Source: Clytia hemisphaerica (taxonomy: Eukaryota > Cnidaria > Hydrozoa > Leptothecata > Clytiidae). From it: a stretch of DNA of 64,000 nucleotides. The translations under genes and the position numbers were made by a program. The number at the start of each line of letters is the position of its first letter. Position 1 is the stretch's first letter. The notes beneath the pieces are model-generated. The model did no database searches. It saw only the letters and a list, made by a program, of their open reading frames with translations, and had not been told where the DNA came from. Of this stretch, positions 6,040 to 22,927 are shown piece after piece. Location: the NCBI GenBank assembly GCA_902728285.1, contig CACVBU010001050.1, positions 114,797-178,796 of the forward strand. Direction: 5' to 3'.

Positions 6040-6114
6040 TTATTTTGGAGAAATCTACTTCGGACCATATATTTCATGTTCGTTTCTTTTTTTCTTTTAC
6101 AGAAAATAATAAAA

Positions 6115-6279: not shown

Positions 6280-6518
6280 ATGTTTAGTTTCGTTTGGTTT
6301 CGTTTTGGTTCGTTTGTTCTGGTTTGCTGATGTTTTTTATATTTTTATAGCTTTTTAACCACCTATAACGTATATTTTTGTACATTTTTGTATTGTTAGT
6401 TTGTATTTAAAAGGAATTTTCTTACGTGCGCGGTAAACCTCTAAACTCACTAAAATTAGACATTTAAATTCAGTTTGGAAAGGTCAGAAAATAAGCTGTC
6501 AGTGAAAAGACTTTTAGA

Positions 6519-6537
6519 GAAAACGAAAGTGAAAGTG
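6519..6537 (+). promoter_or_regulatory. IRF-type array upstream of the tRNA-like exon (gene 1)
   Basis: GAAAACGAAAGTGAAAGTG, followed by a copy of the CTCTCAGCCAAAAGACTTAG word at about 6562. In copies A' and A'' one GTGAAA has become GTAAAA. Confidence 0.5.
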
Positions 6538-6674
6538 AATTTGAAAGTGTCAAAAAGCATGCTCTCAGCCAAAAGACTTAGTAAATTTTAGAATGGTTGT
6601 GTTCTTTTGAACACTGTATTTCTCTCCTTTTTCTTATTTTGTAGATCTTTCGACAAACAACAACAACAAGGATC

Positions 6675-6719
6675 ACCCTAGCTAGGTAGTTCTAACTGAG
6701 TTCAATTCTCAGTCTAGGT
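6675..6719 (+). ncRNA. Compact tRNA-like hairpin (gene 1 copy A)
   Basis: The exon starts after acceptor TTATTTTGTAG (about 6645). It contains an acceptor-like stem (ACCCTAG at 6675-6681 with CTAGG-T at 6714-6719) and a T-arm-like hairpin CTGAG-TTCAATT-CTCAG. The loop and stem resemble a tRNA T-arm and pol III B box; there is no anticodon arm, as in MALAT1-type mascRNA. Copy A' has the full 7-bp stem, so one G is missing here. Confidence 0.5.
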
Positions 6720-6889
6720 AATGCTAAATGCACTTTAAATCAAGAAATCGTAAGAAGAAGGAATCAAAAAGGTAAGAAAGAGGCAAATTGTAAGGCATTA
6801 CTTGAAATTGAACAAATATATGCGAAATATCAGCTGATAATGGGCTGATTTTTTAAATCTCGGCAGCTATCATTTTGCGCGCATTCGCG

Positions 6890-6990
6890 CGCAACTTCTT
6901 CTCTTCTTTCGTTGCCCTTTTTTTTCTTCCCCCCCCTTTTACGTCGAAGATCGTTCCCCGGGTTTTGCGCAGGGAGGATTCTAATAGTCG
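6890..6990 (+). other. Module boundary: pyrimidine tract and decayed U6-like word
   Basis: A C/T-rich tract is followed by GGTTTTGCGCAGGG (6961-6974) and AGGATTCTAATA. It matches in position the antisense U6-like sequence at 22886-22927, but only the GCGCAGGG core and a few bases beyond remain. A GCGCGCATTCGCGCGC palindrome lies just upstream (about 6877-6892). Confidence 0.5.
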
Positions 6991-7240
6991 AGGTAAAAAT
7001 GAAACTAAATTGAAACTCATTGACCAATAGTTTTCATTTCCGAGTTCCATTTTTGTTTCATTTTCCTGCTTTCCTCCAATCCCGTTCATTTGGGAAAATG
7101 AAAATGATTGGTCAGTTCCATTTTTTGGAAAATCGGAACTTTCCTCCAATCGGCTATTTGTTTATGTTTCAAATTTCCAATTTTTTCCATTTTTTGCGGA
7201 TAACGCGTTGTGATTGGTTTACGGCAAAATAAATTCAAAA
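6991..7240 (+). promoter_or_regulatory. Gene 2 promoter region
   Basis: CCAAT boxes in both orientations (ATTGG near 7098 and 7212; CCAAT near 7076 and 7145) and repeated, opposed copies of a private word close to GGAAAATGAAA / TTTCATTTTCC (near 7031, 7055 and 7092). It ends at an AAAATGGCTACC YY1-like motif at 7238. This is the same architecture as 14011-14236 and 40301-40511, though the private word differs. No TATA box is seen. Confidence 0.5.
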
Positions 7241-7475
7241 TGGCTACCTCTATCGACCGGCAGTGTTTTGGCTCATTTTTTGCTAAGTCTGAAAATGAGC
7301 TTAAATATTGCTATAAATGAGCTAAATACTTGGAATTGGACTTGGAAACTGCTAAATTTAGATTCAGCACATTGAATTTGATATATCCTGCAAGTTTGGT
7401 TGCTTTTGGTTCATTTTTGGAAAAGTTATGGTTGTTTTTCATGTTGGTCACTTTTGGGGGGTCTTGGCATGCAAG
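7240..7475 (+). other. Gene 2 non-coding exon 1 with 26-codon upstream frame
   Basis: It starts at the YY1-like ATGGC, opens a 26-codon frame (stop TGA 7318-7320) and ends at donor GCAAG|GTAAGA (intron from 7476). The matching gene 1' exon (40511-40736) shares the downstream half almost word for word, including GGGGGGTCTTG and the donor. The transcription start is inferred. Confidence 0.45.
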
Positions 7476-7735
7476 GTAAGATGGTGGGACTACTTCCTCA
7501 AGCTTATTTAGAACGAATGACTGCTTGAAATGGTATCTATATCATCTATGGATACTACCCATAGCATTCTGTTTGGTTGGTTAAGGAGTATGTAAAAGTT
7601 CTGAGGCTGTGACGACCGTGCACTCAAAACAGCCATTTTTCTTTGTTTTGGTCCAAAATGTTGCTTGCTAATGTTGAAATACATGCTTGTTTCTGTTTGT
7701 TTTTTGTTGTTTTACCTTCCATATAGTTCCCTTGA

Positions 7736-8000
7736 AGTACCTCATAGGTTTTGACTTGGTTCGCAGGGGTTTCGTGGAAGCTACAAACCATTATGACACG
7801 TAAACATTGAATGTCGTGAATTATAACTTTCATAAGTTCTGCGAACCAAGTCAAAACATTACAAGCTGTCATATAATGTCTGTTTGAGTTAACCTGAAAG
7901 TAGTTTATAGGTTTTGACTTGGTTCGCAGGGGTTTCGTGAAAATTATAAACCGTTATGGCACGTAAACATTGGTCTTCTTAAATTAAAGGTTTTTAACTT
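7736..8000 (+). repeat. Intron-1 foldback repeat with 18-bp perfect inverted arms (gene 2)
   Basis: TTTTGACTTGGTTCGCAG near 7749 is the exact reverse complement of CTGCGAACCAAGTCAAAA near 7839. A second TTTTGACTTGGTTCGCAG copy follows near 7912. Between them lie ACACGTAAACATTGAATGTC-type units shared with gene 1 intron 1. In RNA the arms would form a hairpin of about 110 nt. Confidence 0.7.
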
Positions 8001-8122
8001 CTGCGAACAAGGTTATAAGTCCACGTTCTTTTGAATACCATCTGTTTGAGTTATTGCTTAAGTGTTTTGTAATAAATTTTATCTGTAATCTCCAGTATCA
8101 CAAACATAACATTCATATAACT

Positions 8123-8356
8123 ATGTCTACACCTCATCGGAAAGTACCTGATTCAGAGTGGGAACGTCGCATGAGACTTTATGCTCTCGGTGAAGAGTCT
8201 TTTGAAAGGGGACGTACTCCAAGTCAGCCAAGATGGGTAGAGGCCAAGAAAAAAATCGAGAAATGCCCATTGTTTTTAACAAGAGCTCAAGGCAATAGAA
8301 GGGGTAGAGATGTTTTTGGACAAATAATCAAATGTACATGTACCTTTCATGAAAAG
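8123..8356 (+). CDS. Gene 2 exon 2: small Cys/His N-terminal domain (78 codons)
   Basis: Acceptor CTCCAG ends at 8094; first ATG 8123; donor GAAAAG|GTAATC after 8356; phase 0. The exon encodes a basic domain with W-x2-R and a C-terminal Cys...GRDVFGQ..KCTC..HEK pattern, giving Cys, Cys-x-Cys and His as possible zinc ligands. Gene 3 exon 2 (16413-16739) has the same arrangement (CPVYISRAGKDIFGQ, KCTCGYSHEK). It joins in frame to 8465. The function is unknown; I infer an N-terminal zinc module of the transposase-derived protein. Confidence 0.65.
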
Positions 8357-8464
8357 GTAATCTAAAATTTGATTGCATATTATACTCTTTGATTGGTTGT
8401 TTTTCTTGCTTGTGGGTTTTGTTTTCTTCCAATATATTATCCCTGGTCTCCACACTCTATTTAG

Positions 8465-11400
8465 AAACAAGTCACCCCTCCTGTAATCAAAAACCGGTTC
8501 AAACATGCCTTGTCACCATCAAAACCATCCACCTGCACAGAAGCACAAAAGTCTGAACCCCTTTCCACTTTATCCTCAAACACACCACCCAAAAAGCACG
8601 CGTACGACAAGTCTCCAGTCAGTAAAACTCCTCCAAGCAAGCCATTACATTCTGCTAAACGACCATCCTCGTCCCCAGCTAACCCCTCTGCCAAACGACC
8701 ATCCTCGTCCCCAGCTAACCCTTCTGCCAAACCTAACCTTCCACCGCCGTCACCTTTGAAACCGTCTCCAAAGTCCTCTCAAGTCTCACAATCAAAACAC
8801 GAGAATTTAGAATGCTACATGCCCAATGACAATTTGAATTTAGACGAAGTGGATATAGAAAACACATCATCCAATAATTTGCGAGGTGTCTCACCGCCAC
8901 CCTCCCAGTCTCCCTCAAAGCAAGTACCAAAATCTCCGCTGAAGAGCAAACCATCTCATGCGAGCAAAATCCTTGCCAGTTGGAGACCTTCCATAAGAGA
9001 GGAAGATAAAGAGTGGATTGGGCGGGAACTGTTCAACAGCGACGGAAAAATTAAGAAACCGTATAGACTCTTTTACTACCCAATACCTGCAGTTGAAACC
9101 AGTGCGATACCGTCAACGTCGCACTATTTTACGCGAAACTTTTTCTTGTGGATGCCACGGAAAATGTGGATGCTAGAGTTCGATTGCCCGAAATGCCATG
9201 GGAAAAAAACAATGAGATCTCACGGTATGCATGCAAAAATAAGGAAGGTGGTCGACATTCAGGATTTTTATTACATGGGGACAGAGAATTTAGAATGCAA
9301 CAGGATAGATTGCAAACGTCAAATCCCTTCCTGGGATGAAGCTATCCTAGATCAGCTACCGTACACCATTCGTCTCAAGTTTCCTGCCTATCTCACCCGC
9401 CATCATGCAGCTGACAAATCAATATTGACAACGCTGAGGTCAAGATCTGCTGGCAATACCCCAACATCTATTTCTAAAGTCATTATGGAATCACACAGTG
9501 AGTGGTTCATGCGTCGATCTATTATGTACATGGGAGACGTGAAGGAATGTTTGAAGAACCGCCTTGTCGTTGCTCCAGAATTTGATAAACCGCCATCGTT
9601 TGACCTTGTGCCAACCGCAAAATGGTTTCTGTCTGTTTACGTCAAAGATGTTATGGATCGAAATGACCAGCTGAAAGGTATGATCACCAGCACGCTTGGA
9701 AAAATCCTCAAAATCGATTCCACGAAGAAAGTTCTCAAAAAGCTATCGGGAAAAGCCAAAGGCACTGGCACCTGGACCACAAATGTGGGGAATGAATATG
9801 GTGCAATCTTGAATTGTGTGATCACTGCATCTGAGTCCAACGAGTCACTTAAACCTCTTGCAGAGGGTTTAATGGATCGATTTCGAAAGGCAGGCGCTGA
9901 CCAACCCCTTTTGATCTACACTGACAGAGATTGCTGCTGCAGCAATCACGGCAATGGTCCGTCCAAGCTCACCGATCTTTTTGTTGAGTGGGAAGGCATG
10001 CTTATCCGCCTTGATGTCTGGCATTACATGCGACGCATTGCACAAGGCTGCTCAAGTGAATCGCACCCTTTGTATGGTTTGTTCATGGCTCAACTTTCAG
10101 GCTGCATTTTTGATGTGTGCAAAGAGGATTATGACAGACTCTTTGAGGCAAAGCGTCAAATAATGGAATCAGTTGGTGTCAGAAACCCTACAGCCCAAGC
10201 TATCAAAGCTGCCATCACACCTGACGAAATCAAGCGCCACTGTCGACGTGTGACAAGAGGAAAAGACGTCACCTACAAAAGGATTGATGCACTGATGTGT
10301 GACTTCATGTTTGCCACCGACTCTATGGGTGTTTATCTTTTCAACCAGAACATGAGAGACATCTGGGATGAACAAAAGAAACATGTTGGTTGCATTCAAG
10401 ATCCCGACGGTATCGACTTGTACGCGGTTGTGGATGTCATCGAAAAGGGGGATTCAAAACTTCCAGTCTATCGTTGTGCAAGAGGATCAAATTCCTTGGA
10501 ATCCTTTCACTCTCACCTCTGCAATTTCATCCCAGGAACCTCGGCCAACGCTGTAAACTTTCAAGCTTACCTCTTGGATGGCATTGCAAGATGGAATCAG
10601 GAAAGAAAGCAGGCACTGGATGAGCAAGCTCCAGCCCAACTCAAGTGGCAGTCAATCTTGTTGAAAGAAAAACTCGAAGCTCGCCAGATAACAAGAGAAT
10701 TCGAAGAAAAGGCTAGAGCTGAATTGAAGACCAAGATGGCAGCAATAGAAAACAAACAAGAAGGCCAATACCTTGAAGATGAGAACCTTCGACCAAGAAC
10801 TCATCCAAACCTTCAACAGTCTGCACATCGACATTTTCGGTGGTGATCCTCCTCTCAACAAACCAGATGCTTCTGCTGAAATCGACGAGTTGTTTGGCAT
10901 GGAGTTCGTTTTTGCACAATCACAAAGAGAATTCAACAAAATCTTCATCGATGAAACCCTTGGCAAACAGGAGGATCAAGCTGATTCCGGCATCGAACTT
11001 GAGGATGACGAGACAAAGGAGCCTGTACCCGACCTCTTGGATGATCCAACCTTTGTTGACCCAAAAATTGATGAACCTGCTGAAGAGACTGATCCAGCAG
11101 AAACTAGCCCAGAACCAGTCGCAACTGACAGCCGTGGCATTCCTGGTTGGAACAAAGTGGATCAACTCGTCCAATCTCTTCTCAATCAGAAAGGAGGGGT
11201 TAGTATGACCATTGCCGAAGGTGACGAAATCGTAAAGCTTTACAACCAACTGGATGATTTCGACAAACAGCCCACAATCTACTTCCCAGTGCCAACCAAA
11301 GGCCAAACTTCAGGTCGATTCATGAGGAAGAAGAAATCAACCGACCAACAAAACATGATTGCAATGAGACAAACGTTTGTTACTGGCACCTTACCACCTC

Positions 11401-12375
11401 TAAGTCCAGAAACAAATCGAATCGTCGAATGCATCTGCATCCATCTCACCAACAAGCACGTGACCAGCTCGACCGTCGTCAAGTCGCCATCCAAACGCGC
11501 AAGTCAATCAAGGTGGAACAAAGTGATTGCTGAGTACAACAACGCAAGAGCCAGAGTCTTCTCAAGCAAAGCTGTGTGCACCAAAACTTCAATCGCTCTT
11601 TTTCAAATCAACGAACCCAAACTCATAGCTTGGCACACCAAATCAACAAGAATTACAGAAGTCAAATCTTTGATGAAAGGCAGAAAGTTACCAGGAAGTC
11701 TCAGTCTGACTCATGAAACGCCAACACCAACAAAACATGATGCGTCCTTCTCAGGCTCTAAGATGACCTTCAAAGACCGGAAAGACTTGAGGGGACAGGC
11801 CAAAAAACCACCATCAAAGGTAGGAGATGTACCACCCCCAGACACGTCCGACCCATTTCTCGACATGCCATCTATTGAAAACTCAACCACTGACCCATCT
11901 CCTTCACCATCTGGAATGATCAAAGCCAAAATCATCAAGCCACAAGTCATTCAGCAACCCTTATATTTACCCCAACAACAGCTACCCCAGTTCGTCATTC
12001 AACAGCCGACTTTCCAACAGCAACCGTTTCAACCACGACCATTATTTGCACCACAAGCCTTGTTTCCAAACCTGTTGCCCAAACCTATTGTCAGTACTCA
12101 ACCAATCCATCCTCTCTTCAACTAACACCCCGATGCCTGTAGCCAAGACGACCATGTACCGGTATCTGAAGGCAGGGAAGGATCCCAAGGAGGCTGCTAA
12201 GAGAAAGAAGTACTCTTGCTCTATCTGTAGCAGACCAACTAGTGATCCTGACCATACGCAACTTCAAGGATATCGGTACTGCCCTCAAAATCAGCAATCT
12301 TTCGAGCAATGGAAAAAAGAGACTTATGAGAAAATCAGACTAAGGAAAGAAGCTAAAAGTAAAAAAAACAAATGA
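8465..12375 (+). pseudogene. Gene 2 main exon: DDE transposase-derived protein, two frame breaks
   Basis: Acceptor TTTAG ends at 8464; phase 0 from exon 2 gives KQVTPPVIKNRFKHALSPS, matching FKHASP/FKWASP of the paralogues. Order: Ser/Pro-rich linker (a 36-bp unit is doubled near 8660-8730); zinc-ribbon-like C-x2-C near 9187 and a Cys pair near 9300; RNase H-like core with Asp in KIDST (9716), Asp in TDRDCC (9923), Asp-x-x-His (LDVWH, 10013-10024) and Glu in SLESFH (10499); acidic linker; RGIPGWNKVDQL; basic block; Pro/Gln-rich tail; C-x2-C-x8-H-x8-C end. The frame shifts near 10775 (inside an extra Lys/Glu-rich segment of about 40 residues) and near 12115, just before the MPVAKTTMYRY motif. 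If these are sequencing errors the gene is intact; otherwise it is decaying. No GT-AG intron explains either break. Confidence 0.7.
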
Positions 12376-12483
12376 TAAATGATACTATTTTTATACTTTT
12401 TTATACATTACCATTACCATTTTTCTACATTTTTGGTGTCAAAAAATGTTGTATAGTTAGGCCACTTACCTATCCTTTTAACA

Positions 12484-12591
12484 GAAATCGAAAGTGAAAG
12501 TGGTTTGCAAACTGTTAAAAATTGTGCTCTCAGTGAAAAGACTTAGTAAATTTCTGATCTCTTTGAAAACGAAAGTGAAAGTGATCACGTG
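12484..12591 (+). promoter_or_regulatory. IRF-type arrays plus E-box (gene 2)
   Basis: GAAATCGAAAGTGAAAGTG at 12484-12502, CTCTCAGTGAAAAGACTTAG at 12527, GAAAACGAAAGTGAAAGTG at 12565-12583 and CACGTG at 12586-12591. This is the cleanest copy of the composite, in the same position relative to the transposase stop as in genes 1 and 3. A lone GGTCACGTGAC follows at 12823-12833. Confidence 0.6.
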
Positions 12592-12910
12592 ACTCATTTG
12601 GAGAGACATTATATTCTACATTCTTTTGTTTAACATTCTTATGTTTTACCATTCTTCTGTTCATATAGTAGGATATTTTATCATAAAAATTTTTAAACGT
12701 ACATATTCCTAGGTTTTATCCTGTACATAGTTTATTGAAAACATAAAAAACGAACTCTCTTCCCATTTCTGCACCCCCAAAAATTGAGCTCTCAGCTAAA
12801 AGACTTAGTAATTTTCAGAATGGTCACGTGACTTATTTTGGAGAAAACTTCTGACCATATATTTCATGTTCGTTTCTTTTTATTTACAGATAATAACTAA
12901 CAAATATATA

Positions 12911-13069
12911 ATGGATCCAGAAGCAGAAGGAACAGGAGTGGCTATCATTCTTGGAAATGACCTGACTGACGCAGGGCTGGACGTGATGTCCTCCAAAAAA
13001 TATTGTTGTTTGCTGTTAATAATATTTTTCGTACTGTCGCTGTTATTGTTAGTTTGGTTATTGTCATAA
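12911..13069 (+). CDS. Small tail-anchored membrane protein of gene 2 (52 aa)
   Basis: The exon opens after acceptor TTTTATTTACAG (about 12889); first ATG 12911. Acidic N terminus, then GLDVMSSKKYCC, then one long hydrophobic segment ending WLLS at the C terminus. Same length and layout as 6115-6279, with most N-terminal residues changed but the KK-x-C patch and membrane segment kept. I infer a tail-anchored protein of an internal membrane. The transcript start is unknown; the exon could be joined by alternative splicing from the upstream leader or from a local promoter. Confidence 0.6.
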   Translation: MDPEAEGTGVAIILGNDLTDAGLDVMSSKKYCCLLLIIFFVLSLLLLVWLLS

Positions 13070-13308
13070 ATGTCATAAATGTTTGGATTTGTTTGGTTTC
13101 TTTGTTCTGGTTCACTGTTCGTATTGCTGATATTTTTTTATGTTTTATAGCTTTTTAACACCTTTAAGGTATATTTTTGTATATTTTGTATATTTTGTAT
13201 ATATTTAAAAGGAAGATAATCCTCTAAAATCACTATAATTAGACATTTAATTCATTGTTTAAAGGCCAGAAAATGAGCTCTCAGTGAAAAGACTTAGTAA
13301 ATTTTATA

Positions 13309-13414
13309 GAAAACGAAAGTGAAAGTGAATATGAAAATGTCAAAAAGTATGCTCTCAGCCAAAAGACTTAGTAAATTTTAGAATGGTCACGTGACCTTTT
13401 TTGATCACGTGACC
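13309..13414 (+). promoter_or_regulatory. IRF-type array and paired E-boxes (gene 2)
   Basis: GAAAACGAAAGTGAAAGTG at 13309-13327, then GGTCACGTGACC at 13385-13396 and GATCACGTGACC at 13403-13414. The E-box pair recurs with the same 18-bp register at 22275-22304 (gene 3) and 40065-40094 (segment D). Confidence 0.6.
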
Positions 13415-13489
13415 TCTTTTGAACACTGTATTTCACTCTTTTCTCTTATTTTCTAGATCTTTCGATCAACAACAACAAGAAGAACAATA

Positions 13490-13533
13490 CCCCTGCTAGG
13501 TAGTTTAAGCTGAGTTCAATTCTCAGTCAGGGG
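13490..13533 (+). ncRNA. Compact tRNA-like hairpin (gene 2)
   Basis: Acceptor TTATTTTCTAG ends near 13456. Outer stem CCCCTG (13490-13495) with CAGGGG (13528-13533); inner hairpin CTGAG (13510-13514), loop TTCAATT, CTCAG (13522-13526). Relative to gene 1 (ACCCTAG/CTAGGGT) the outer stem changed on both sides and still pairs, so structure rather than sequence is conserved. A U-rich tract and a CAA-rich tract precede it. Confidence 0.55.
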
Positions 13534-13680
13534 AAATGCTACTAAATGCACAAAATATTCATCACAGAAGAATTTAATGAGGACACTGGTCAAAAAATAG
13601 CGTTTTTAAAGGTAAATCTTCAAATAAAGACCCTCAAAAAATGCCCTCTCAGCCAAAAGACTTAGTAATTTTTAGAATGC

Positions 13681-13707
13681 TCACGTGACTTTTTTGATCA
13701 CGTGACC
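13681..13707 (+). promoter_or_regulatory. Paired E-boxes near the gene 2 module end
   Basis: CTCACGTGAC (13680-13689) and GATCACGTGACC (13696-13707), preceded by a CTCTCAGCCAAAAGACTTAG word near 13644. A pyrimidine-rich ATTTTAG acceptor-like site follows near 13747 with no recognisable exon. Confidence 0.45.
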
Positions 13708-13869
13708 TCTTTTGAACACTGTATTTCTCTCTTTTCTCTTATTTTAGTCAGTTTAAAGGCTAAACATCTTATTTTTCATTAAGGATCTCAAAATCAGCTG
13801 AATTTGGCTTGGAAAACACGAAAATGCAATAAAAATCAGCGCAAAATCAGCTGATGAAAACTATGGTGG

Positions 13870-14010
13870 TACCATTATGGAATTTTCCCGCTTTTCTCGC
13901 CTCTTCCCCTCTCTTTTCCCCCTCTTCCCCTTCTTTTTTTCTTCCTCGCCCTTTTCGACCTCGACCCTTCTCCCCCCGGCCTTGCGCAGGGGCGATCTTA
14001 ATCTTAGACA
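13870..14010 (+). other. Module boundary: pyrimidine tract and antisense U6-like sequence
   Basis: A C/T-rich tract of about 100 bp is followed by CCTTGCGCAGGGGCGATCTT (from 13980) and AATCTT. Compared with the U6 core on the opposite strand, the CCTTGCGCAGGGG block and TAATCTT are kept and the rest is altered. The next promoter begins directly after it. Confidence 0.55.
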
Positions 14011-14236
14011 TATATTGGAACTGATTGGAACTTTTGGAACTGACAATACATTGGAACTCATTCCCCTCTCTCATTGGTTTGCCGTTCCAAAGTTGTTCCA
14101 AATTGAGTTCCAAATACTACCAATCATATTGCTCCGTGAGTTCCAATTAGTTCCAAAGTTCCAAATGTACTATTTCTATTGGCTTATTTCATATTTCTAA
14201 TCCCGCGAATCTATTGGTCGAAAAATCAAAAAAAGA
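14011..14236 (+). promoter_or_regulatory. Gene 3 promoter with inverted GGAACT array
   Basis: Four GGAACT words on the left face several AGTTCC words on the right (to about 14163), making an imperfect inverted array of about 150 bp. CCAAT boxes occur in both orientations near 14073, 14124, 14177 and 14212. The region ends at AAGATGGCTGCC (YY1-like), whose ATG at 14236 opens a 12-codon frame (stop 14272-14274). No TATA box is seen here. Confidence 0.5.
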
Positions 14237-14412
14237 TGGCTGCCGTGGCGGAGTTGATTTTCTCAGCTTTTTAGCTGTAGCTAGAATTTCAGACTTTACA
14301 TCTTATTCAATTGGCTCTAAGACTGCGATTTAAACAGAAGTAAACCTGGTTTTACTTCAGGAACATTCTTCTAAACATTCTCTAAAAGTTTCAAGTCATT
14401 TGCTCAAGTTTT

Positions 14413-15385
14413 CATCAAATTATGAGTGATTTTCTACTAAATCCAGACTTAGTCATTTTTCAGCATAAACATTGATTTTTTAGAACTGGACAAGGATATT
14501 TTTACAAACAACCACCACTGGGAATGGACAAAGCATCATATAGTACAGTTCATGTGTAAGTTTGAAGAAGATTGAAACATCTTTAATGAAGTTATGGCTG
14601 AAAAAGATGATTTTCTCTATTATGCCATCAAATTATGAGTGATTTTCTACTAAATCCAGACTTAGTCATTTTTCAGCATAAACATTGATTTTTTAGAACT
14701 GGACAAGGATATTTTTACAAACAACCACCACTGGGAATGGACAAAGCATCATATAGTACAGTTCATGTGTAAGTTTGAAGAAGATTGAAACATTTTTAAT
14801 GAAGTTATGGCTGAAAATGATGTTTTGCTGGACTTAGTCGTTTTTCGCTTTGTTGACGGCTGTCACGTTGATTTTTTACATTGGACTGGGGCCGAGTTAA
14901 AACAAACCACTACTGGAATTTAACAAAGCATCATATAATGTAGTTCCTGTGTAAGTTTGAAGAAGATTGAAACATTTTTGGTAAAGTTATGGCTGAAAAA
15001 GATGATTTGCTGGACTTAGTCGTTTTTCGCTTTGTTGACGGCCGTCAGGTTGATTTTTTACATTGGACTGGGACCGAGTTAAAACAAACCACTACTGGAA
15101 TTTAACAAAGCATCATATAATGTAGTTCCTGTGTAAGTTTGAAGAAGATTGAAACATTTTTGGTAAAGTTATGGCTGAAAATGATGTTTTGCTGGACTTA
15201 GTCGTTTTTCGCTTTGTTGACGGCCGTCACATTGATTTTTTACATTGGACTGGGACCGAGTTAAAACAAACCACTACTGGAATTTAACAAAGCATCATAT
15301 AATGTAGTTCCTGTGTAAGTTTGAAGAAGATTGAAACATTTTTGGTAAAGTTATGGCTGAAAAAGATGATTTTCTCTATTATGCC
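14413..15385 (+). repeat. Tandem array, units of about 214 and 182 bp
   Basis: Five diverged units: two of about 214 bp (starts near 14413 and 14627) and three of about 182 bp (GCTGGACTTAGTCG near 14827, 15009 and 15191). Each contains AAGTTTGAAGAAGATTGAAA and a GTGTAAGT donor-like word. It lies in the 5' untranslated part or intron 1 of gene 3. From 15386 to 15830 I see no gene. Confidence 0.85.
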
Positions 15386-15832
15386 ATAATTCACGGTTTT
15401 ATCAAAAGTCGTTTTATTTCTTAATGTCGCGAATAAATTTTTTTACAACAAACCACTACCAGAGATTGATTAAGCATATATAAGTGCAGTTCCTATGTGA
15501 ATTTGAAGGTGAATGAAATATTTTTCAAGAAGATATTCATAAAAGTTATACATACGTTATTATATATAAATGTTTTTACGTAACGCTCAGAACTTAGGTT
15601 GAAATCAGTAAATCAGTATGAATGTATGAAAATCCACTAACCTTTGTTTTGGACGAGCTACCTTTATTCCAATTACTGTCCGAAAAAGGGTTGGACAGTT
15701 CCTGAAGCCTTCCACTCTACTAGCCTAAAGCTTACGCAAAGGGAATTAGTCAGGAAGGATTAAAGCACATAAAGTACTAGACTTGGGACGCAAAGTGTTA
15801 TGCTCCCAAGCTCCTTTGGGCTACTTGAATGT

Positions 15833-15840
15833 TATAAAAG
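15833..15840 (+). promoter_or_regulatory. Candidate TATA box in the gene 3 leader
   Basis: TATAAAAG followed by GGGTCC, about 570 bp upstream of the exon 2 ATG. It lies just after a CTTGGGA...TCCCAAG inverted repeat (about 15783-15811). It could be an alternative gene 3 promoter; chance occurrence in AT-rich DNA is possible. Confidence 0.3.
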
Positions 15841-16412
15841 GGGTCCTCCCTCCAGTGCCACTATATGTTTCTAGCTTTACAAATTTAGCTTAAATAAGAA
15901 ACAAATAATGGCAAATGTTGTGGACAGTATTGGAAAGGTCGTAGCCAAAATGCCATCGATTTGTCTCTTTTCTTCATACATGCCAGAACATAGTTCATTT
16001 TAACCTTCCTTTCTAATTTTTGCTTTTTTAAAAATCTTTTTCAATTTTTGAGTGAATTTCTTCCCTTTTTGACTTAGTAAAAATATCATTTTGGCGCCGA
16101 TTTCCTGAAAAATGAGCGCCTGAAGTGCCACTAAAGATCAACAGCCTTTTTCATCAAGGAAATTATAAGCTCGCGCCGAGACGCTAAGAAAATTACGTCT
16201 CTTTAGGTAACACTTTGTTTATGAATTTCGTAGCTCAGGCTCAGGCTCAAAGTGAAAAATTTCAAACACGTTGTTGGATTTGATTTTCTGGTTGGTTTGG
16301 GGATTTGTTTGCTATTCATTATCTGGTTATCTGGGTTGTCTTTGTGTTCATGTGTTTGATTCGTTAAGTTTTAATGTTTCCATTTCTTTTCCAAGTTGAA
16401 AAAAAATTACTA

Positions 16413-16739
16413 ATGCCGAAAACTGCTTTATCAGCCAAAGTATGGCAAACAAGACTACAAAGATATGCTGCAAAAGTAAAAGATGCCTTTCCTCCAGGGT
16501 CTTTTCCCTCAAAGAATACTACTTGGGGACAAGAGCGTGCCAAAATTGATGCCTGTCCTGTTTATATATCTCGGGCTGGGAAAGACATTTTTGGTCAAAA
16601 ACTGAAGTGTACTTGTGGATATTCACATGAAAAAATTGTTCACAATGATAGTAATAAAATCAACACTGGAGTTGGATCATCGGTGACAAAATCTGTCTCA
16701 CTTCCTTTGCATTCTAGCAATCTTTCAATAAATCAATTA
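16413..16739 (+). CDS. Gene 3 exon 2: small Cys/His N-terminal domain (109 codons)
   Basis: Acceptor TTTTCCAAG ends at 16395; ATG 16413; the ATG at 16374 lies on the intron side. Encodes a W-Q-x-R start, then Cys...SRAGKDIFGQ...KCTCGYSHEK, aligned with gene 2 exon 2, then a Ser/Asn-rich tail ending SINQL. Donor TTA|GTGAGT after 16739, phase 0; the 147-bp intron ends with TTCTAG at 16886. The Cys, Cys-x-Cys and His suggest a small zinc-binding unit. Probably part of the same polypeptide as 16887-20453; function unknown. Confidence 0.7.
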
Positions 16740-16886
16740 GTGAGTTTGATAACTTTATGTTGACATGTTTTTCTGATTTGGACTTTTTCTGATTTATAAA
16801 TTCTTAGCGCACGGTTCATTGTTTTGTTTTGGATTTGCTTACTGAATTCAGCCTTCTCAAGAACTTAATAAATTTCCTCGTTCTAG

Positions 16887-19800
16887 CCTTTGACCTCCAG
16901 ATTGAATCAACTTTCATCGTCACCGTCATCAACATTGTCTTCTCGGTCGCTTAAACGTACTTTTAAATGGGCGTCCCCTGCAACATCAACCGTTGATAGA
17001 CCTCATCAAACTGATCAGTCACCTGTCAAATCTTCAAATTTAGAGACTCCTCAAATACCTCAAGTATCAAATACCTCATCCACGTCAGTCCCTGCTGCAT
17101 CAGCCCTTGCTGCATCAGCCCTTGCCGCATCACCACCTACAACACCACCACCTGTCTCATCACCACAGAATACTCAGACCATATCCACTCCTACTTCTCA
17201 AGTTGCAAATAGCCCAGGATATAAAGAATCACCGATCTATCCCTTGCCTGATGTTGGAACACTTCCATCGTATTCTCCAACTTTATCACCTTTAAGTCCT
17301 GCTAAACCACGTCAACCGACTGACTTTTCTCTGAGGCCACCTAAAGATTGGAAGATGGAACCTGCAGATCGGGAATGGGTTGGACTACACGTATTTTCTT
17401 CCAAAAACACGTTGGCCCTGCCAATGCGTAATTGGTATTATCCACCTACAGTTTCAGCGATCGCCAAAAAGCCATCACCGCAGAACTATTTGCTGCACAA
17501 TTTTTTTCTATGGGCCCCAATGTCAATGTGGAAAGTTCAACTGAAATGTCAACGTGGTAATTGTGGTAAACCGCTGAGACGTAAAGGAATCTACACTCAC
17601 ACTCTTCGGACCGTTTGTGATATGCAAGATTTTTATTACTTAGCAACAGAGTACTACAATTGTACATGTAATTCCACATACGTAGGATGGGACAATTCTA
17701 TCATCTATCAGCTTTCAATTTCACAGCAATCAAAGTTTCCTGCATTTCTGATGTACCGCTCAACATTGGATAAGTCAATTCTTACCCTCCTCCGCTCACG
17801 AACCAAGGGAAACAGCCCAACAGCTACAGGTCATAGTATTGCAGAACTACACTCAGAGAACTATTTGAAAAAGATGTCAATGTACCTTGACGACTGTGTC
17901 CATCACAAAAATGGCATCGGCTCCCTTCTTTCCAATGAAACTTCATATCAACCACTTCCTCTGATGAAAGGAGTGCCAGAAGTACGGTGGTTTCTGGCTT
18001 GCTACACCAAAGACGTACTCCAACGGCAAGATGTTTTAAAAGGCAACATTACCTCTGTCTTCGGGAAGATTTTGAAAATTGATTCTACAGGTAAAACCCT
18101 TCGTAAATTGGCTGGGACGATACGTGGAAGTGCTCGCTGGGTTACGAATGTTGGCAATGAGTACGGTGCCATACTCCAAAGTGTCGTGGTTCACTCTGAA
18201 AGTAACGATACCCTTGAACAGATGGCTAAGGGGATTGTTGATCGTTATGCAGCCGCTGAAGTTCCACCCCCTAAGCTCATCTATACAGATAGAGATTGTT
18301 GCTCTTCGACTGGTCCAGCAAAAATCGAGAGTCTCTTTGTCCAGTGGAATGGTTTATTGGTGAGATTGGACGTTTGGCATTTGATGGAACGAATTGCTCT
18401 TGGTTACACCAGCAAAGACCACCCTCTTTACCAAACATTCATATCCCAACTCTCCGGATGCATTTTTGCCTACGACGAGGATGATTACCAGAAGTTAAAG
18501 AAAGCAAAGAGAATAGAGCTTCAGGAAGCTGGTTTGCGTAATCCCTCTGATGGAGCCATCAAATCATCTTTGACCAAGAAGGAGCTACTTGCCCACTGCA
18601 AAAGGTACACCCGTGGCGATTATGAAACTTGCAAAAGAATCGAAGCACTCATTTTGGAATTCACCGGGGCAACTGATGTCCTAGGCGCCCCTCTCTTCAA
18701 TGACGAGATGGTCAAGATTTGGGAAGAACAACGCCGACATATAGAATGTATCCAAGATCCACCTGGAATTCCCTTATATGCTGTTACCAAAACCATCAAG
18801 AAAGGGGGACAAGATCTACCGGTTTACCGATGTGCCAGAGGCAGCAATTCCTTGGAATCCTTCCATAGCCACCTGAAAGAGTTTATCCCTGGCACGTCTG
18901 CCAACGGTCTGCATTTTCAAGCTTACCTTTTAGATGGAATATCTCGTTGGAACACCGCTCGCAAAGAGGCCTTGCGCGACGACAAGCAAAATCAGATAAG
19001 GACTTTTGACCATGAACTTGCCCTCCGCTTTGATCAGCTGCATTCAAAGGTATTCAATAAGCCACTACTCGAAATGGAAGCTCCGGCCGCTCTGAATGAA
19101 GAGTTGATTGGAATGGAATACTTTTTCAAAGCGTCAAACATCACTGTTGATGCAGAATACATAAAGAACAACATAGAAGATGAAGACTCTGGCATAGAAG
19201 ACTTAACATTTGAGGACGCGCCAGCTGAAACCACAGACACAATAGCTCAAGAGGAAATTGATACCACCGAAAATGATGAAAATGATGAATCCGTCGACTC
19301 TTTAGGCATACCAGGATGGGGCCATGTTGATCGTCTTGCCCGTGCACTTCTTGATCTGGAAGGTGTCAGTATCCCTAAAGCCAAGTGCTCCACCATCTTA
19401 AAGCTGTTTGGCGCATTAAATGATTTTGACAAGCGCCCAATGAAATTTAAACCTGTCCCAATCAAGCCAGCCACCGGCAAGTTTAAACGGAAGCAGCAAA
19501 TGAGTGGCAATGCTAACGCTCGCATTGTTGCTATGCGAAGGAGCTTTGTTACTGGTGGTCAACCTTCACTTTGTCCCTCGAAAAATAGGATCGTTGAGGC
19601 CATCTTCATCCACCTTACCAACACGCATGCCTCCAGCAGCACAATCACCACAGCTGGTCAGAAGAGAAAGAACGAATCGAGATGGAAAAAGTGCATCACC
19701 GACTACAAGTATGTCCAGGCAAGAGTATCAAACAGCGAGTTGAGATCCTCAATCAGTGTTTTTCTATTCAATGTCAATGAGACTACCCTAATGAAGTGGC

Positions 19801-20453
19801 ACAAACGTAAGACAAGGCGAGAAGAAGCTAACATTCTTCTACAGGGAAAAACACTCCCAGGAACAGCTTCAACAATGAAAACTAACATCAAACCAGCCAT
19901 CTTGAAGTCCAATCCGGACGCTGGAGCAAGAATGGTGTTCAATCTGCCAGTCAACACAGCTGGAAGCCAGAAGCCTTCGAATCAGCCAAAGACAACAGAC
20001 AAACTACCACCATCCAACGAAGCTTCCTTCAATGCCTCCCTATTCGACTCATCGCTCCAGCCACCAATCACTACCCAATTATTGACATCAAACCGACCAA
20101 TTAAACCAAAACCCATTGAGCCAGCATCATATGTACCTAATGCCCCTCCCCCAAAAAGATGCATCATCCCTTTTCAACGTGTCCCTCCACCGTCAAGTTC
20201 CCTATCAGAAGAATCGCAACCAAGTCCTCTCGCAATGCCAAAAACAACTTTTTATCGGCATCAAAAATTAGAGCAACAAACAGGTATAATAAAGCAAAAA
20301 AGGAAATACAATTGCACGAAATGTGGTGAACCTTTTGTGGCACCCCACACTCAATATTATGGTAGAAAATTTTGCCCAAAAAGTGACAGTCTCTCATTTG
20401 AAGATTGGTTGGCCTGGGCAAAAAATGAGAGGTCAAAGAAAAATTCACAATGA
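16887..20453 (+). CDS. Gene 3 main exon: intact DDE transposase-derived protein (1188 codons)
   Basis: The only uninterrupted member of the family here; with exon 2 it gives about 1297 residues. Exon residues: FKWASP (about 25); Pro/Ser/Thr-rich linker to about 145; zinc-ribbon-like Cys pairs (about 220 and 260); RNase H-like core with Asp 399 (KIDST), Asp 468 (TDRDCC), Asp495-Val-Trp-His498 and Glu 657 (NSLESFH); acidic linker; SLGIPGWGHVD (about 803); Arg/Lys-rich block (about 862-910); Pro-rich 1000-1110; MPKTTFYR; final C1143-x2-C1146-x7-H1154-x8-C1163. Asp, Asp, [C/D]-x2-H and Glu in this order is the signature of MULE/hAT-like DDE transposases; the Cys-rich front resembles the domain of unknown function DUF6729 as I remember it (not searched). 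No terminal inverted repeats were recognised, so the protein may be an active transposase or a domesticated DNA-binding factor. Likely nuclear. Confidence 0.8.
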   Translation, partial: PLTSRLNQLSSSPSSTLSSRSLKRTFKWASPATSTVDRPHQTDQSPVKSSNLETPQIPQVSNTSSTSVPAASALAASALAASPPTTPPPVSSPQNTQTISTPTSQVANSPGYKESPIYPLPDVGTLPSYSPTLSPLSPAKPRQPTDFSLRPPKDWKMEPADREWVGLHVFSSKNTLALPMRNWYYPPTVSAIAKKPSPQNYLLHNFFLWAPMSMWKVQLKCQRGNCGKPLRRKGIYTHTLRTVCDMQDFYYLATEYYNCTCNSTYVGWDNSIIYQLSISQQSKFPAFLMYRSTLDKSILTLLRSRTKGNSPTATGHSIAELHSENYLKKMSMYLDDCVHHKNGIGSLLSNETSYQPLPLMKGVPEVRWFLACYTKDVLQRQDVLKGNITSVFGKILKIDSTGKTLRKLAGTIRGSARWVTNVGNEYGAILQSVVVHSESNDTLEQMAKGIVDRYAAAEVPPPKLIYTDRDCCSSTGPAKIESLFVQWNGLLVRLDVWHLMERIALGYTSKDHPLYQTFISQLSGCIFAYDEDDYQKLKKAKRIELQEAGLRNPSDGAIKSSLTKKELLAHCKRYTRGDYETCKRIEALILEFTGATDVLGAPLFNDEMVKIWEEQRRHIECIQDPPGIPLYAVTKTIKKGGQDLPVYRCARGSNSLESFHSHLKEFIPGTSANGLHFQAYLLDGISRWNTARKEALRDDKQNQIRTFDHELALRFDQLHSKVFNKPLLEMEAPAALNEELIGMEYFFKASNITVDAEYIKNNIEDEDSGIEDLTFEDAPAETTDTIAQEEIDTTENDENDESVDSLGIPGWGHVDRLARALLDLEGVSIPKAKCSTILKLFGALNDFDKRPMKFKPVPIKPATGKFKRKQQMSGNANARIVAMRRSFVTGGQPSLCPSKNRIVEAIFIHLTNTHASSSTITTAGQKRKNESRWKKCITDYKYVQARVSNSELRSSISVFLFNVNETTLMKWHKRKTRREEANILLQGKTLPGTASTMKTNIKPAILKSNPDAGARMVFNLPVNTAGSQKPSNQPKTTDKLPPSNEASFNASLFDSSLQPPITTQLLTSNRPIKPKPIEPASYVPNAPPPKRCIIPFQRVPPPSSSLSEESQPSPLAMPKTTFYRHQKLEQQTGIIKQKRKYNCTKCGEPFVAPHTQYYGRKFCPKSDSLSFEDWLAWAKNERSKKNSQ

Positions 20454-20543
20454 TAATTTTTAAAAAGTGATTTTCTTATGCTCATCTTTATTTTGTTCAT
20501 TTTTATTTTGTTTATTCATAACACCATGGTATATATCATTTTT

Positions 20544-20645
20544 GAAATCGAAAGTGAAAGTGGTTTTCAAAGTGTCAAAAAGTGAACTGTCATTGAAAGG
20601 ACTTGGTAAATTTACTGATATATCTTAAAAACGAAAGTGAAAGTG
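20544..20645 (+). promoter_or_regulatory. IRF-type arrays (gene 3)
   Basis: GAAATCGAAAGTGAAAGTG at 20544-20562 and ACGAAAGTGAAAGTG ending at 20645, 90 bp after the stop codon. The E-box seen at this place in the other genes has decayed to GTTCATCTG. A GGTCACGTGACC box follows at 20853-20864 after the TCAAAAGACTTAGTAATTTT word. Confidence 0.6.
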
Positions 20646-20985
20646 TTCATCTGAAAAAGAGTCTAGTTAGCTGTCTTTTTCTTTCTAAAACTCTTAAACA
20701 ACATGTTTAGGGATATTTCATATTCTTATGTACATAATTAGCTTTTTATCTTGTACATAGTTTTTTAAATACATGGAAAATGAACTGTCTCTCAATTTCT
20801 CTCACCCTTCAAAAAAGACCTCTCAGTCAAAAGACTTAGTAATTTTCATAATGGTCACGTGACCAATTTTCTAACCATATATTCATATATAGTATGAAAA
20901 TATAATGTTTTCTCCTGTCAGATCTACAAACAACAAAGAGTGGCCGAATTCTTTTTCCTCTTAGAGAGACGATGTTATAATGAAA

Positions 20986-21073
20986 GGGTAATTAGTCCTA
21001 TCTGGGTCCCTCTGTCTTTATCCTGGCTTGGGACAGGCTGACTGTCATTCAAGACAGTCAGGCGACATTACCC
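20986..21073 (+). ncRNA. Candidate structured RNA, multi-stem
   Basis: Outer stem GGGTAAT (20986-20992) with ATTACCC (21067-21073); inner perfect 9-bp hairpin CTGACTGTC (21038-21046), loop ATTCAA, GACAGTCAG (21053-21061); a third possible stem GTCCC/GGGAC (about 21006 and 21029). It occurs only in gene 3, between the E-box and the first micropeptide exon. No known RNA family is recognised. Confidence 0.4.
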
Positions 21074-21185
21074 CAGCAACCTGTACAAGATGACAACTCC
21101 AGGTAGTCATATAGTCCATAGTCATATATATATATATATATTCATTTTTTTCTTTTACAGAAGATAACTAAAAAACAAATAAAAA

Positions 21186-21347
21186 ATGGAACCAATTCAG
21201 ATAAATGTGGATTACGAGAGGCAGGCGGCTATAATTGAAATCAGGTCCTTAAGAAAGTACTGTTCAGTGTTGTTGTGGTTGTTTTTTGTGCTTTTTATAT
21301 TGATTGTTGCAGTTTACTTGTTGGTGTGGCATCTTCACCTCCATTGA
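21186..21347 (+). CDS. Small tail-anchored membrane protein 1 of gene 3 (53 aa)
   Basis: The exon opens after acceptor TTCTTTTACAG (about 21161); ATG 21186, stop TGA 21345-21347. About 25 polar residues, then RSLRKYC, then a single hydrophobic segment of about 25 residues, ending in a short His-rich tail (WHLHLH). The basic-Cys patch followed by the membrane segment corresponds to KKFC/KKYC of the gene 1 and gene 2 micropeptides, but otherwise it is strongly diverged. I infer a single-pass protein with the N terminus in the cytosol. Confidence 0.5.
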   Translation: MEPIQINVDYERQAAIIEIRSLRKYCSVLLWLFFVLFILIVAVYLLVWHLHLH

Positions 21348-21573
21348 TGTTTCTGGTTTGCTTGTTGGTTTTTTAAATTGTTTATATTTTTGTACAGTTT
21401 TTAACAGTTTTTGTAGTTTTGTAGATTTTTAGCTAGTAGATGTTATATTTAGTTTTGTATATTTTGTGTTTATGGGAAAGATTTTATCTAAAAACTCTTA
21501 AATAGACAATTCAATGCTGAATGTTGAAAGGCCAGAAAATGAGCTCTCAGCGAAAAGACTTAGTAAATTTCGA

Positions 21574-21602
21574 GAAAACGAAAGTGAAAGTGATCACGTG
21601 AC
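21574..21602 (+). promoter_or_regulatory. IRF-type array fused to E-box (gene 3)
   Basis: GAAAACGAAAGTGAAAGTG (21574-21592) runs directly into ATCACGTGAC (CACGTG 21595-21600), after CTCTCAGCGAAAAGACTTAG at 21544. It lies 45-50 bp upstream of the acceptor of the second membrane-protein exon. Confidence 0.6.
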
Positions 21603-21697
21603 TTTCTTCTAACTCCTGTATTTCTATATCATTTTTATTTTACAGATAATTAATAAAAACTACAGACCATGCTGGGTACATTACAGGCCACCTAAAT

Positions 21698-22057
21698 ATG
21701 TCTGATCACGTGGTCCTGTTTATTCCTCCTGCTCCTCCTGTCCTTCCTCCTGTTCCTGATGCTCTGCTTCCCGTTCCTGCTGTTGTCCCTGCTGTCGTCC
21801 TGCCTGATATTCTTCTAGATGTTCCTGCTTCTCTTCCTCCTCCTATTCCTGGTGTTGTTCCTGTTCCTGATGTTGTTCCTGTTGTCGTTCCTGTTGTTGT
21901 TGTTCCTGTTGCCGCCGTCCCTGTTGTAGATAATGAAAATGAGCAATTTCTTCCTCCTTCCTCTCCTCGTAAATGTCCTGATTGTCTTGGTACTTTTTTA
22001 CTTGTTTTAGTTAATGTTGTGATTTTGATTGGTCTTGCAGTACTTTCTTTTTCGTAA
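21698..22057 (+). CDS. Pro/Val-rich tail-anchored protein of gene 3 (119 aa)
   Basis: The exon opens after acceptor TTTATTTTACAG near 21645; ATG 21698, stop TAA at 22055-22057. Residues 8-76 are almost only Pro, Val, Ala and Leu in VVPVP-like steps (CCTGTTGTT-type codons); then an acidic NENEQF stretch, a CPDC pair with preceding Arg-Lys, and one C-terminal hydrophobic segment (about 99-117). The basic-Cys-membrane ending matches the other micropeptides, so I read it as the same exon type expanded by a repeat. An upstream ATG near 21669 opens only a short frame. Confidence 0.5.
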   Translation: MSDHVVLFIPPAPPVLPPVPDALLPVPAVVPAVVLPDILLDVPASLPPPIPGVVPVPDVVPVVVPVVVVPVAAVPVVDNENEQFLPPSSPRKCPDCLGTFLLVLVNVVILIGLAVLSFS

Positions 22058-22202
22058 CTGTTTCTTTATGTAGTGTTTTGTAATTGTACAGTTTATTTAT
22101 GTCATATTTAATGTATGTTAGATCTTTATTTTTAACTGTAAATAGCTTAGTTTTTTATTTCATACGCATTTTTTATCAGATTTTATAGATTTTACGTAAA
22201 AA

Positions 22203-22304
22203 CGAAAACGAAAGTGAAATAATTCAATGTCAAAAAATGGCCTCTCAGTGAAAAGACTTAGTAAATTTCAGAATGGTCACGTGACCTTTTTTGATCACGT
22301 GACC
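22203..22304 (+). promoter_or_regulatory. IRF-type array and paired E-boxes (gene 3)
   Basis: GAAAACGAAAGTGAAA from 22204, CTCTCAGTGAAAAGACTTAG near 22243, GGTCACGTGACC 22275-22286 and GATCACGTGACC 22293-22304. Same order and spacing as 13309-13414 in gene 2. Confidence 0.6.
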
Positions 22305-22379
22305 TCTTTTGAACACTGTTTTTTTCTCCATTTTCTTATTTTCTAGATCTTTCGACCAACAACAACAACAAGAACAAAA

Positions 22380-22424
22380 CCCCCTGCTTGGTAGTTTAAG
22401 CTGAGTTCAATTCTCAGCCAGGGG
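22380..22424 (+). ncRNA. Compact tRNA-like hairpin (gene 3)
   Basis: Acceptor TTATTTTCTAG near 22346, then a CAA-rich tract. Outer stem CCCCTG (22381-22386) with CAGGGG (22419-22424); inner hairpin CTGAG (22401-22405), TTCAATT, CTCAG (22413-22417). Nearly identical to the gene 2 copy. Confidence 0.55.
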
Positions 22425-22545
22425 AAATGCTAAAAGCACTCGTTTATCAACGAAAGGACAAAGACAACATATTTAAAGGTATTTTTTCGAGATCGAAACG
22501 TCAAAAAATGGGCTCTCAGCCAAAAGACTTAGTAATTTTTAGAAT

Positions 22546-22573
22546 GGTCACGTGAGTATTTTGGTCACGTGAC
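22546..22573 (+). promoter_or_regulatory. Paired E-boxes near the gene 3 module end
   Basis: GGTCACGTGAG (22546-22556) and GGTCACGTGAC (22563-22573), preceded by CTCTCAGCCAAAAGACTTAG near 22513. Confidence 0.45.
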
Positions 22574-22619
22574 TTGTTAAGACACTGTAAAATGCCTCTT
22601 TTTGTATGAAAAAGTTTAA

Positions 22620-22643
22620 CTGGGTCCAATTCCCAGCTAGGGT
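22620..22643 (+). ncRNA. Partial second tRNA-like hairpin (gene 3)
   Basis: CTGGG-TCCAATT-CCCAG followed by CTAGGGTAATGCTAAA. The inner stem differs from CTGAG/CTCAG by a paired A-T to G-C change, and the shared AATGCTAAA tail is present, but the 5' strand of the outer stem is missing. Looks like a decayed or alternative copy. Confidence 0.4.
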
Positions 22644-22885
22644 AATGCTAAAGGTAACAACAGCCAATAAAACGAAAAATACGTCAATTTTGCGTCGAAA
22701 ACACATGGAAAACACGTGGCGATGATAAATTTGCCGCCATTATGGATTTTTTCCCGCATTTCGAAGCCAGATTTTGAATTTTTCCCGCTCCTTTCCCTTT
22801 TTCCTTCCCCCTTCCCCCTTCGTTCCCCCTTGCTTTCGTCATTTTTTTCGTTCGTCCCCCAGTCGTGTCTAAGATCGTCCCCCGG

Positions 22886-22927
22886 CCTTGCGCAGGGGCC
22901 ATGCCAATCTTCTCTATATCGTTCCAA
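22886..22927 (-). pseudogene. U6 snRNA core fragment, antisense
   Basis: Read on the minus strand, this matches the central part of U6 (about nt 25-67) at 40 of 42 positions compared with the human sequence as I remember it, including GCATGGCCCCTGCGCAAGG and AGAGAAGATT; the ACAGAGA box reads ATAGAGA. The 5' stem-loop and 3' part are absent, so it is a fragment, not a gene. It is the best preserved of four U6-like words at module ends. Confidence 0.65.

Follow-up and report, generated by a model that had tools for sequence, protein, structure and literature searches.

We analyzed a 64,000-nucleotide stretch of the genome of the hydrozoan Clytia hemisphaerica (contig CACVBU010001050.1; C726:114797–178796), hereafter the window, in which a first-pass annotation had described tandem modules that pair a transposase-derived protein with membrane micropeptides and a tRNA-like RNA. 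The evidence suggests that these modules are Dada-U6 DNA transposons of diverged families, which inserted successively at one site of a single U6 small nuclear RNA (snRNA) gene. In addition to the transposase, the elements appear to carry a second gene for a small membrane protein (TA1) under purifying selection, as well as a composite site and E-box repeats, both of which are conserved and probably act in cis, as enhancers or in transposition. To this explanation as a whole, TA1 included, we assign a probability of roughly 0.8. Positions given without a contig are those of the window, and genome-wide searches covered the 417-Mb genome.

Array Layout and the U6 Target Site

The array has the order X, Y, A, B, C and U6 (positions 1–70), head to tail on the same strand. 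Element A lies just upstream of B, and X and Y lie mostly beyond the window. Element B (6971–13981, plus strand), 97% identical to a copy on contig C782, and element C (13988–22887, plus strand), delimited by comparison of ends and junctions, are complete to both ends. Element A (764–6964, plus strand) is 5′-truncated; it was recognized by similarity to its segmental duplicate A′ from 764 on, by a DUF6729 domain with further motifs, and by a 3′ end at TTGCGC. The first-pass annotation had counted three modules with the same order of parts on the same strand between 6975 and 22927. Repeated modules split by TTGCGC are indeed present, but only two are complete in this range, A having ended at 6964.

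A junction scan located the target duplication TTGCGC between A and B (6965–6970), between B and C (13982–13987), and between C and U6 (22888–22893). B and C are each flanked by this 6-bp duplication on both sides. Further junctions in the window lie at 40268 (Y-type end and A′), 47216 (A′ and U6) and 62177 (A″ and U6), so that six TTGCGC sites in all flank one or two element ends. Since these letters were the query of the scan, support for the junctions comes from the sequence on both sides.

The U6-like end of the first-pass annotation proved to be a piece of the interrupted host target gene, namely the 5′ part of a decayed U6 snRNA gene at 22886–22953 on the minus strand (Rfam RF00026, 48.1 bits, model positions 1–70 of 105). 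Weaker, sub-threshold copies lie at 47216 and 62177. Together with a 3′ part on C782 and both parts on C707, these fragments place the insertion between positions 65 and 70 of U6. The 3′ part was not found at the left end of the array in the stretch of C726 examined, which begins at 85001. Genome-wide, all ten U6 DNA matches were partial at this site, eight ending at position 70 or 72 and two starting at 50 or 69; these ten are not a count of intact U6 genes, which must exist. Rfam gave nine U6 matches, three of them aligned over 1–105, yet the junctions are visible in those letters too.

The array on C782 runs from the 3′ part of U6 through TTGCGC and a B-type 5′ end to B1 (2.28 kb), B2 (0.59 kb), B3 (6.9 kb) and B4. 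C760 carries C, Y and A in this order, C707 has a single element between both U6 parts with a degraded left duplication, and C617 and C860 show two junctions and one, respectively. The boundary between Y and A is gone in the first array copy and is seen at 40268 in the duplicate and on C760. Element A′ (40274–47215, plus strand) is a segmental duplicate of A that has the 5′ end. Both A′ and A″, which lie in neighboring duplicates of the locus at about 97–99% identity, adjoin U6 directly, while the first copy has B and C between A and U6. The A′ and A″ loci are the natural site without B and C; insertion after the duplication and loss from the copies would leave the same picture.

The elements have no terminal inverted repeats: their outermost 5′ bases are AGGG, and their 3′ ends, read inward, are GGCC, AACC or AGGC. 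Of the first 18 element bases, the number identical to the U6 sequence flanking the target is 15 in C, 13 in A′, 12 in B and 9 in Y, whereas random windows have a mean of 4.5 (standard deviation 1.8). The AGGG start explains part of this likeness: the mean is 7.8 for windows that begin with it, and 10 of 136 such windows, real junctions included, have at least 12 agreements. Because the 5′ end imitates U6 letters, a usable target would remain beside each insertion, and an inserted element may present a similar target to the next one. By the published mechanism, judged here by sequence, the transposase would act at TTGCGC in U6, and each insertion would duplicate these letters and leave a reusable target beside the element. 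Where U6 has CAGAGAAGA, there is a short inverted repeat specific to each family: GTCGAGGT in B, ATCTTAGACA in C, and five bases in A′ and Y.

The 3′ regions move between families, because identities differ between coding and 3′ parts. X and the C707 element are 94.7% identical over 1776 bases including coding sequence and 73% over 1248 bases of the 3′ part; X and C are 66% identical over the coding-containing part and 85.6% over the 3′ part; and B3 and C share 91% identity over 414 bases of the 3′ region with proteins that are 51% identical.

Transposase

By domain and motif content, the Cys/His and DDE parts of the modules are one transposase (Pfam DUF6729 plus DDE). DUF6729 was recognized in three of the ten proteins scanned, one each in A, B and C (E 8e-62 to 8e-67), and the large frames of these elements contain the motifs KIDST, DRDCC, LDxWH and SLESFH downstream of it. 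The first-pass annotation had seen both parts correctly and assigned them to separate exons; in C they form a single open frame of 1187 codons (16890–20453, plus strand) with D, D, DxxH, E and a C-terminal CCHC motif. The frame of B (8510–12125, plus strand) is broken into two open reading frames (ORFs) at 8510–10846 and 10773–12125, and the transposase of A occupies two frames (1465–3111 and 3027–5048, stop to stop, plus strand). The D–D spacing is 69 in all nine proteins compared, eight of which have DxxH; the spacing given for Dada in the accessible text of Kojima and Jurka (2013, PMC3706591) is 68 (D567 to D635), and the D–E distance is 188–192 here versus 176 there. An N-terminal CCCC zinc motif comprises C221, C226, C259 and C261 in C and C241, C244, C278 and C283 in B, and the C-terminal CCHC motif is present in all four proteins that reach that far (C, B3, B4 and the C707 element). 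The transposases of B and C are 51% identical over 510 columns, which agrees with the earlier description of diverged paralogues.

Searches of solved structures with the transposase gave no matches, and our literature search did not find DUF6729 named. By tblastn, a transposase match is missing only in B1, in B2 and in the 8 kb examined of C860; B1 retains a 46-base piece resembling the coding DNA of C. The idea that loci without DUF6729 are transposase-less was dropped after remnants were found on C617 and C881. We also gave up reading C860 as several short non-autonomous elements; it has a single junction, and its 3′ region is expanded internally. DUF6729 occurs in addition on C875, C212, C417, C786 and C695, contigs without the composite, E-box doublet or TA1 described below, and probably belongs there to Dada families of another target.

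TA1 Micropeptide

TA1 is an ORF of 50–54 codons located 3′ of the transposase, with an acidic N-terminal part, a basic-Cys motif and one C-terminal hydrophobic helix. It lies on the plus strand at 6115–6279 in A (54 aa; found by ORF comparison), 12911–13069 in B (52 aa), 21186–21347 in C (53 aa; 3′ of the acceptor TTTTTTTCTTTTACAG) and 46364–46528 in A′ (54 aa), the last three assigned by ORF, acceptor and selection. The family was found in A, A′, B, B4, C, Y, C_C760 (the C element of C760), C617, C885, C860 (several times) and B1. The 19-residue hydropathy of TA1 is 3.2–3.3 in A′, B, C, Y and C_C760. In all eight copies compared, a TTTACAG acceptor precedes the ATG by 12–28 bases and an E-box or composite site lies 87–407 bases upstream; start, stop and acceptor are conserved.

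We compared the ratio of nonsynonymous to synonymous substitution (dN/dS) between families. It was 0.25–0.33 in frame (Fisher p 0.0004–0.013) in nine diverged pairs, which were picked after a first run of 21 pairs and, as they share sequences, are not independent. Shifted-frame tests gave at least 0.9 in 15 of 18 cases and 0.46, 0.47 and 0.62 in the others, none at p 0.05. Seven control ORF pairs from the same regions gave 0.33–0.95, none below p 0.05. Protein-guided alignment of TA1 pairs favors the true frame; the gap-free alignment of the C–Y pair gave 0.31 (p 0.008).

For a test by composition, sense-strand ORFs of at least 20 codons with a strong hydrophobic stretch (transmembrane-like ORFs) were counted 3′ of the transposase and compared with 200 shuffled or simulated sequences. 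Their number exceeds expectation in B (3 vs 0.23; 0/200), C (5 vs 0.84; 1/200) and C_C760 (4 vs 0.71; 1/200), less clearly so in A′ (2 vs 0.40; 14/200) and Y (2 vs 0.41; 14/200), and not in C707 (3 vs 1.62; 41/200).

Two genome-wide TA1 queries gave 31 and 13 matches, with one copy matched in two pieces in a few cases. Among these 44, 41 are stop-free within the matched piece, all lie on contigs with a composite or E-box doublet, and 37 lie within 1.5 kb of one. The internally deleted B1, with no transposase match, keeps an intact TA1 and combines B ends with a C-type cassette that is 99% identical to C over 508 bases. On C881 (37501–45500), next to broken remnants of a Dada transposase, the TA1 cassette is expanded in tandem, and five unbroken TA1 ORFs were observed there.

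Selection and splice signals point, on sequence grounds, to TA1 being a second gene of these Dada-U6 elements, under purifying selection. Its single C-terminal helix is predicted from hydropathy to insert in a membrane. The micropeptide exon of the first-pass annotation is hence borne out as a conserved coding exon, with its tail anchoring predicted. TA1 would probably be made by splicing a shared leader exon to the TA1 exon, since a donor in A′, B and B3 and the acceptor are seen in the sequence. The donor-like AAG/GTAAG of B lies at 7473–7480 (plus strand) and recurs at the equivalent position in A′ and B3; the corresponding site in Y is GTGAG. The leader exon proposed earlier thus has a candidate donor in these elements, and none was found in C.

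A second ORF of C, TA2 (21698–22057, plus strand), encodes 119 residues, is Pro/Val-rich and ends in a C-terminal hydrophobic helix. TA2 stays open, yet its dN/dS values (0.82 and 0.76) reveal no selection, and we abandoned it as a second selected gene. Pfam gave no family above cut-off for TA1 or TA2, and the solved-structure search with TA1 returned three weak matches only (best E 0.52).

Composite and E-Box Sites

A 28-bp composite of IRF/PRDM1-like repeats and an E-box is nearly invariant across families. The composite GAAAACGAAAGTGAAAGTGATCACGTGA is matched exactly in A (5748–5775), and composite searches located it in B (12565–12592) and C (21574–21601), all on the plus strand. E-box doublets lie in B at 13387–13413, with a second pair at about 13681–13706, and in C at 22277–22303 (plus strand). 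The letters of the composite fit IRF and PRDM1 sites equally well. Judged against 100 simulated sequences, the range 6975–22927 is enriched in CACGTG (15 vs 1.8), TCACGTGACC (12 vs 0.0) and GAAANNGAAA (18 vs 2.5). With up to three mismatches, GAAAACGAAAGTGAAAGTGATCACGTGA occurs at 62 places in the genome, 28 of them exact (reversed control: 0). The doublet occurs at 26 places (control: 0); seven contigs on which a Dada transposase match or a U6 junction lies close by account for 22 of them. AAACGAAAGTGAAAGTGATCACGTGACT is the sole 28-mer common to four of the five families compared. The composites of the first-pass annotation are confirmed by these counts.

A diverged Dada family on C285 has the composite twice and no TA1 match; the composite is thus a part of the elements themselves rather than just a TA1 promoter. 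Another family, on C261, matched neither composite nor TA1. The first-pass annotation would have been contradicted by parts occurring independently at random places. This was mostly not seen, as the genome-wide TA1 matches show, but composites without TA1 do exist (on C285, on C13 and at C261:1.50 Mb). On C13 (C13:158443–163103), five exact composites are spaced about 1.15 kb apart with no TA1 or transposase match nearby.

The promoter proposed earlier, with CCAAT and YY1 motifs, fared unevenly. A YY1-like motif, AA[AG]ATGGC, lies near the 5′ end in five of six elements checked, the sixth (C707) having been examined without its 5′ 0.9 kb; in B it is AAAATGGC at 7237–7244 (plus strand), a position conserved in A′, B3 and Y. 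In the range 6975–22927, CCAAT is about as frequent as expected by chance (54 vs 46.1, standard deviation 7.2) and the loose YY1 core is about two standard deviations over expectation (23 vs 14.7, standard deviation 3.8). The tRNA-like exon had no counterpart, with ARAGORN reporting 0 and no tRNA among 19 Rfam matches up to E 10. We had at first regarded micropeptide and composite as an over-reading of chance motifs, a view dropped after the enrichment, conservation and selection results and kept for tRNA and CCAAT.

Alternative Explanations

Several observations weigh against the reading of stacked Dada-U6 elements with TA1 as a second gene. The Dada assignment was made through published anatomy, and the exact 9-mers TCTTCTCTG/CAGAGAAGA, subterminal repeats of published Dada-U6 families, are absent from the window. 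No leader donor was found in C. In the first run of 21 TA1 pairs, 18 were below 0.5 and three gave dN/dS of 0.65, 0.82 and 0.88, and the choice of the nine pairs followed that run. The TA1 frame is disrupted in A″, in C707 and, by a stop, in the window-side Y; the second TA1 of the C760 Y also has a stop, and in B3 the match is limited to the C-terminal part. The two Dada families outside the group, on C285 and C261, gave no TA1 match. Finally, the case for TA1 comes from sequence.

Plain Dada-U6 transposons could account for the data if TA1 were no gene but a T-rich stretch (a polypyrimidine tract read as hydrophobic) in fast-evolving 3′ repeats. The region is AT-rich and repetitive, TA2 evolves without selection, the excess of transmembrane-like ORFs is unclear in A′, Y and C707, and we found no mention of a micropeptide in the accessible published text. 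We nevertheless consider this unlikely in view of the ORF excess in B, C and C_C760, the contrast in dN/dS between the true frame and the shifted frames and control pairs, and the conserved start, stop and acceptor. Somewhat better placed, though still doubtful, is the explanation that the 3′ region including its E-box repeats is mainly a cis-acting transposition terminus with TA1 as a passenger. The deleted element B1 retains four E-boxes, a TA1 match is missing from the composite-bearing C285 family, and Dada-U6N1_DR retains 1567 bp of its 3′ end (Kojima and Jurka 2013, PMC3706591, accessible text). Passive carriage does not account for the in-frame purifying selection on TA1, however, and the 589-bp element B2, which may or may not be mobile, has no E-box.

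The first-pass annotation had favored a domesticated or semi-domesticated immune module, that is, tandem genes kept by the host and induced through IRF and E-box sites. Such a module would fit the nearly invariant IRF-like composite and the purifying selection on TA1. It is very improbable given that the elements are multi-copy and specific for one target site with a 6-bp duplication, that several families keep their catalytic motifs, that the stack differs between duplicates of one locus, that several frames are broken, and that the composite travels with the elements. Loss of catalytic residues at one locus, the mark of domestication, was not observed; motifs are kept in many copies.

If stacked Dada-U6 elements do carry TA1 as a second gene, the protein may be an accessory in an internal membrane (endoplasmic reticulum or nuclear envelope) that works to the advantage of the element, for instance through positioning or by dampening a response of the host, a proposal we make tentatively. 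With slightly less confidence still, we suggest that the tail-anchored micropeptide might arise from the shared leader by alternative splicing, be selected even in an element without transposase, and serve as a host-directed effector, for example at the endoplasmic reticulum or nuclear envelope, under the IRF/PRDM1-like and E-box site.

Comparison with Known Systems

As described in the accessible text of Kojima and Jurka (2013, PMC3706591), Dada-U6 elements lie between U6 fragments 1–70 and 65–104 with a target duplication of GCGCAA (GCGCAA/GCGAAA) and the transposase opposite to U6; 9-bp subterminal inverted repeats TCTTCTCTG/CAGAGAAGA are presented as shared, not as a definition. The Clytia elements agree in the insertion at 65–70, the TTGCGC/GCGCAA duplication, the orientation of the transposase, the lack of terminal inverted repeats, the D-D-DxxH-E series, the zinc motifs at both ends, and subterminal inverted repeats at the same distance as the U6 motif. 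In contrast to that description, they belong to several diverged families stacked within one U6 gene, have family-specific subterminal repeats in place of the shared TCTTCTCTG, and carry TA1 and the composite in the 3′ region, of which we found no mention there. Zebrafish Dada-U1A_DR and Dada-U1B_DR, head-to-tail copies parted by a target duplication, provide a precedent for stacking in the same text, with two families in a U1 gene where up to five elements of several families occupy a U6 gene here. The domesticated Dada-U6 of cyprinoid fish, dDada, has a related transposase with mutated catalytic residues at one orthologous locus (Kojima 2022, PMC8869645, accessible text), whereas the present copies are many and keep D, D, DxxH and E. 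The kind of element is therefore already known, and stacking has its precedent in Dada-U1; a selected membrane micropeptide was not found in the accessible text of these two Dada papers, nor by a literature search joining micropeptide, DNA transposon, transmembrane and transposase.

Phospholamban and sarcolipin are small single-helix membrane peptides of about 50 residues with an N-terminal soluble part and a C-terminal helix. TA1 resembles them in layout only.

Other Features of the Window

The window is a tandem segmental duplication (764–38587, 40972–58693 and 58703–64000) with about 97–99.6% identity. The segment 27689–31811, missing from the second duplicate copy, contains endonuclease- and reverse-transcriptase-like frames with (ATT)13 at its end and resembles a LINE insertion. 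A Mutator-like transposase fragment (PF20700) lies at 24022–24459, with segmental copies at 48330–48767 and 63293–63727. The 5′ part of C contains a minisatellite of about 182 bases (14413–15525), and related repeats occur in the C707 element (C707:16005–16371). A twister-P1 ribozyme match lies inside C at 21004–21074 on the minus strand, its 63.4 bits being slightly below the gathering score of 67.2. Two of the 61 twister-P1 matches listed across the genome reach the cut-off. Four matches about 350 bases apart on C192 (C192:93979–95100) resemble retrozyme-like tandem repeats.

Implications

The putative link between DUF6729 and Dada, which is based on anatomy, would let many uncharacterised proteins be annotated. 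The stacks also offer a test of the ways in which transposons with a specific target insert repeatedly at one site and swap parts. If TA1 is expressed, a simple DNA transposon would carry a membrane protein under selection, and one may ask why a cut-and-paste element would need a membrane.

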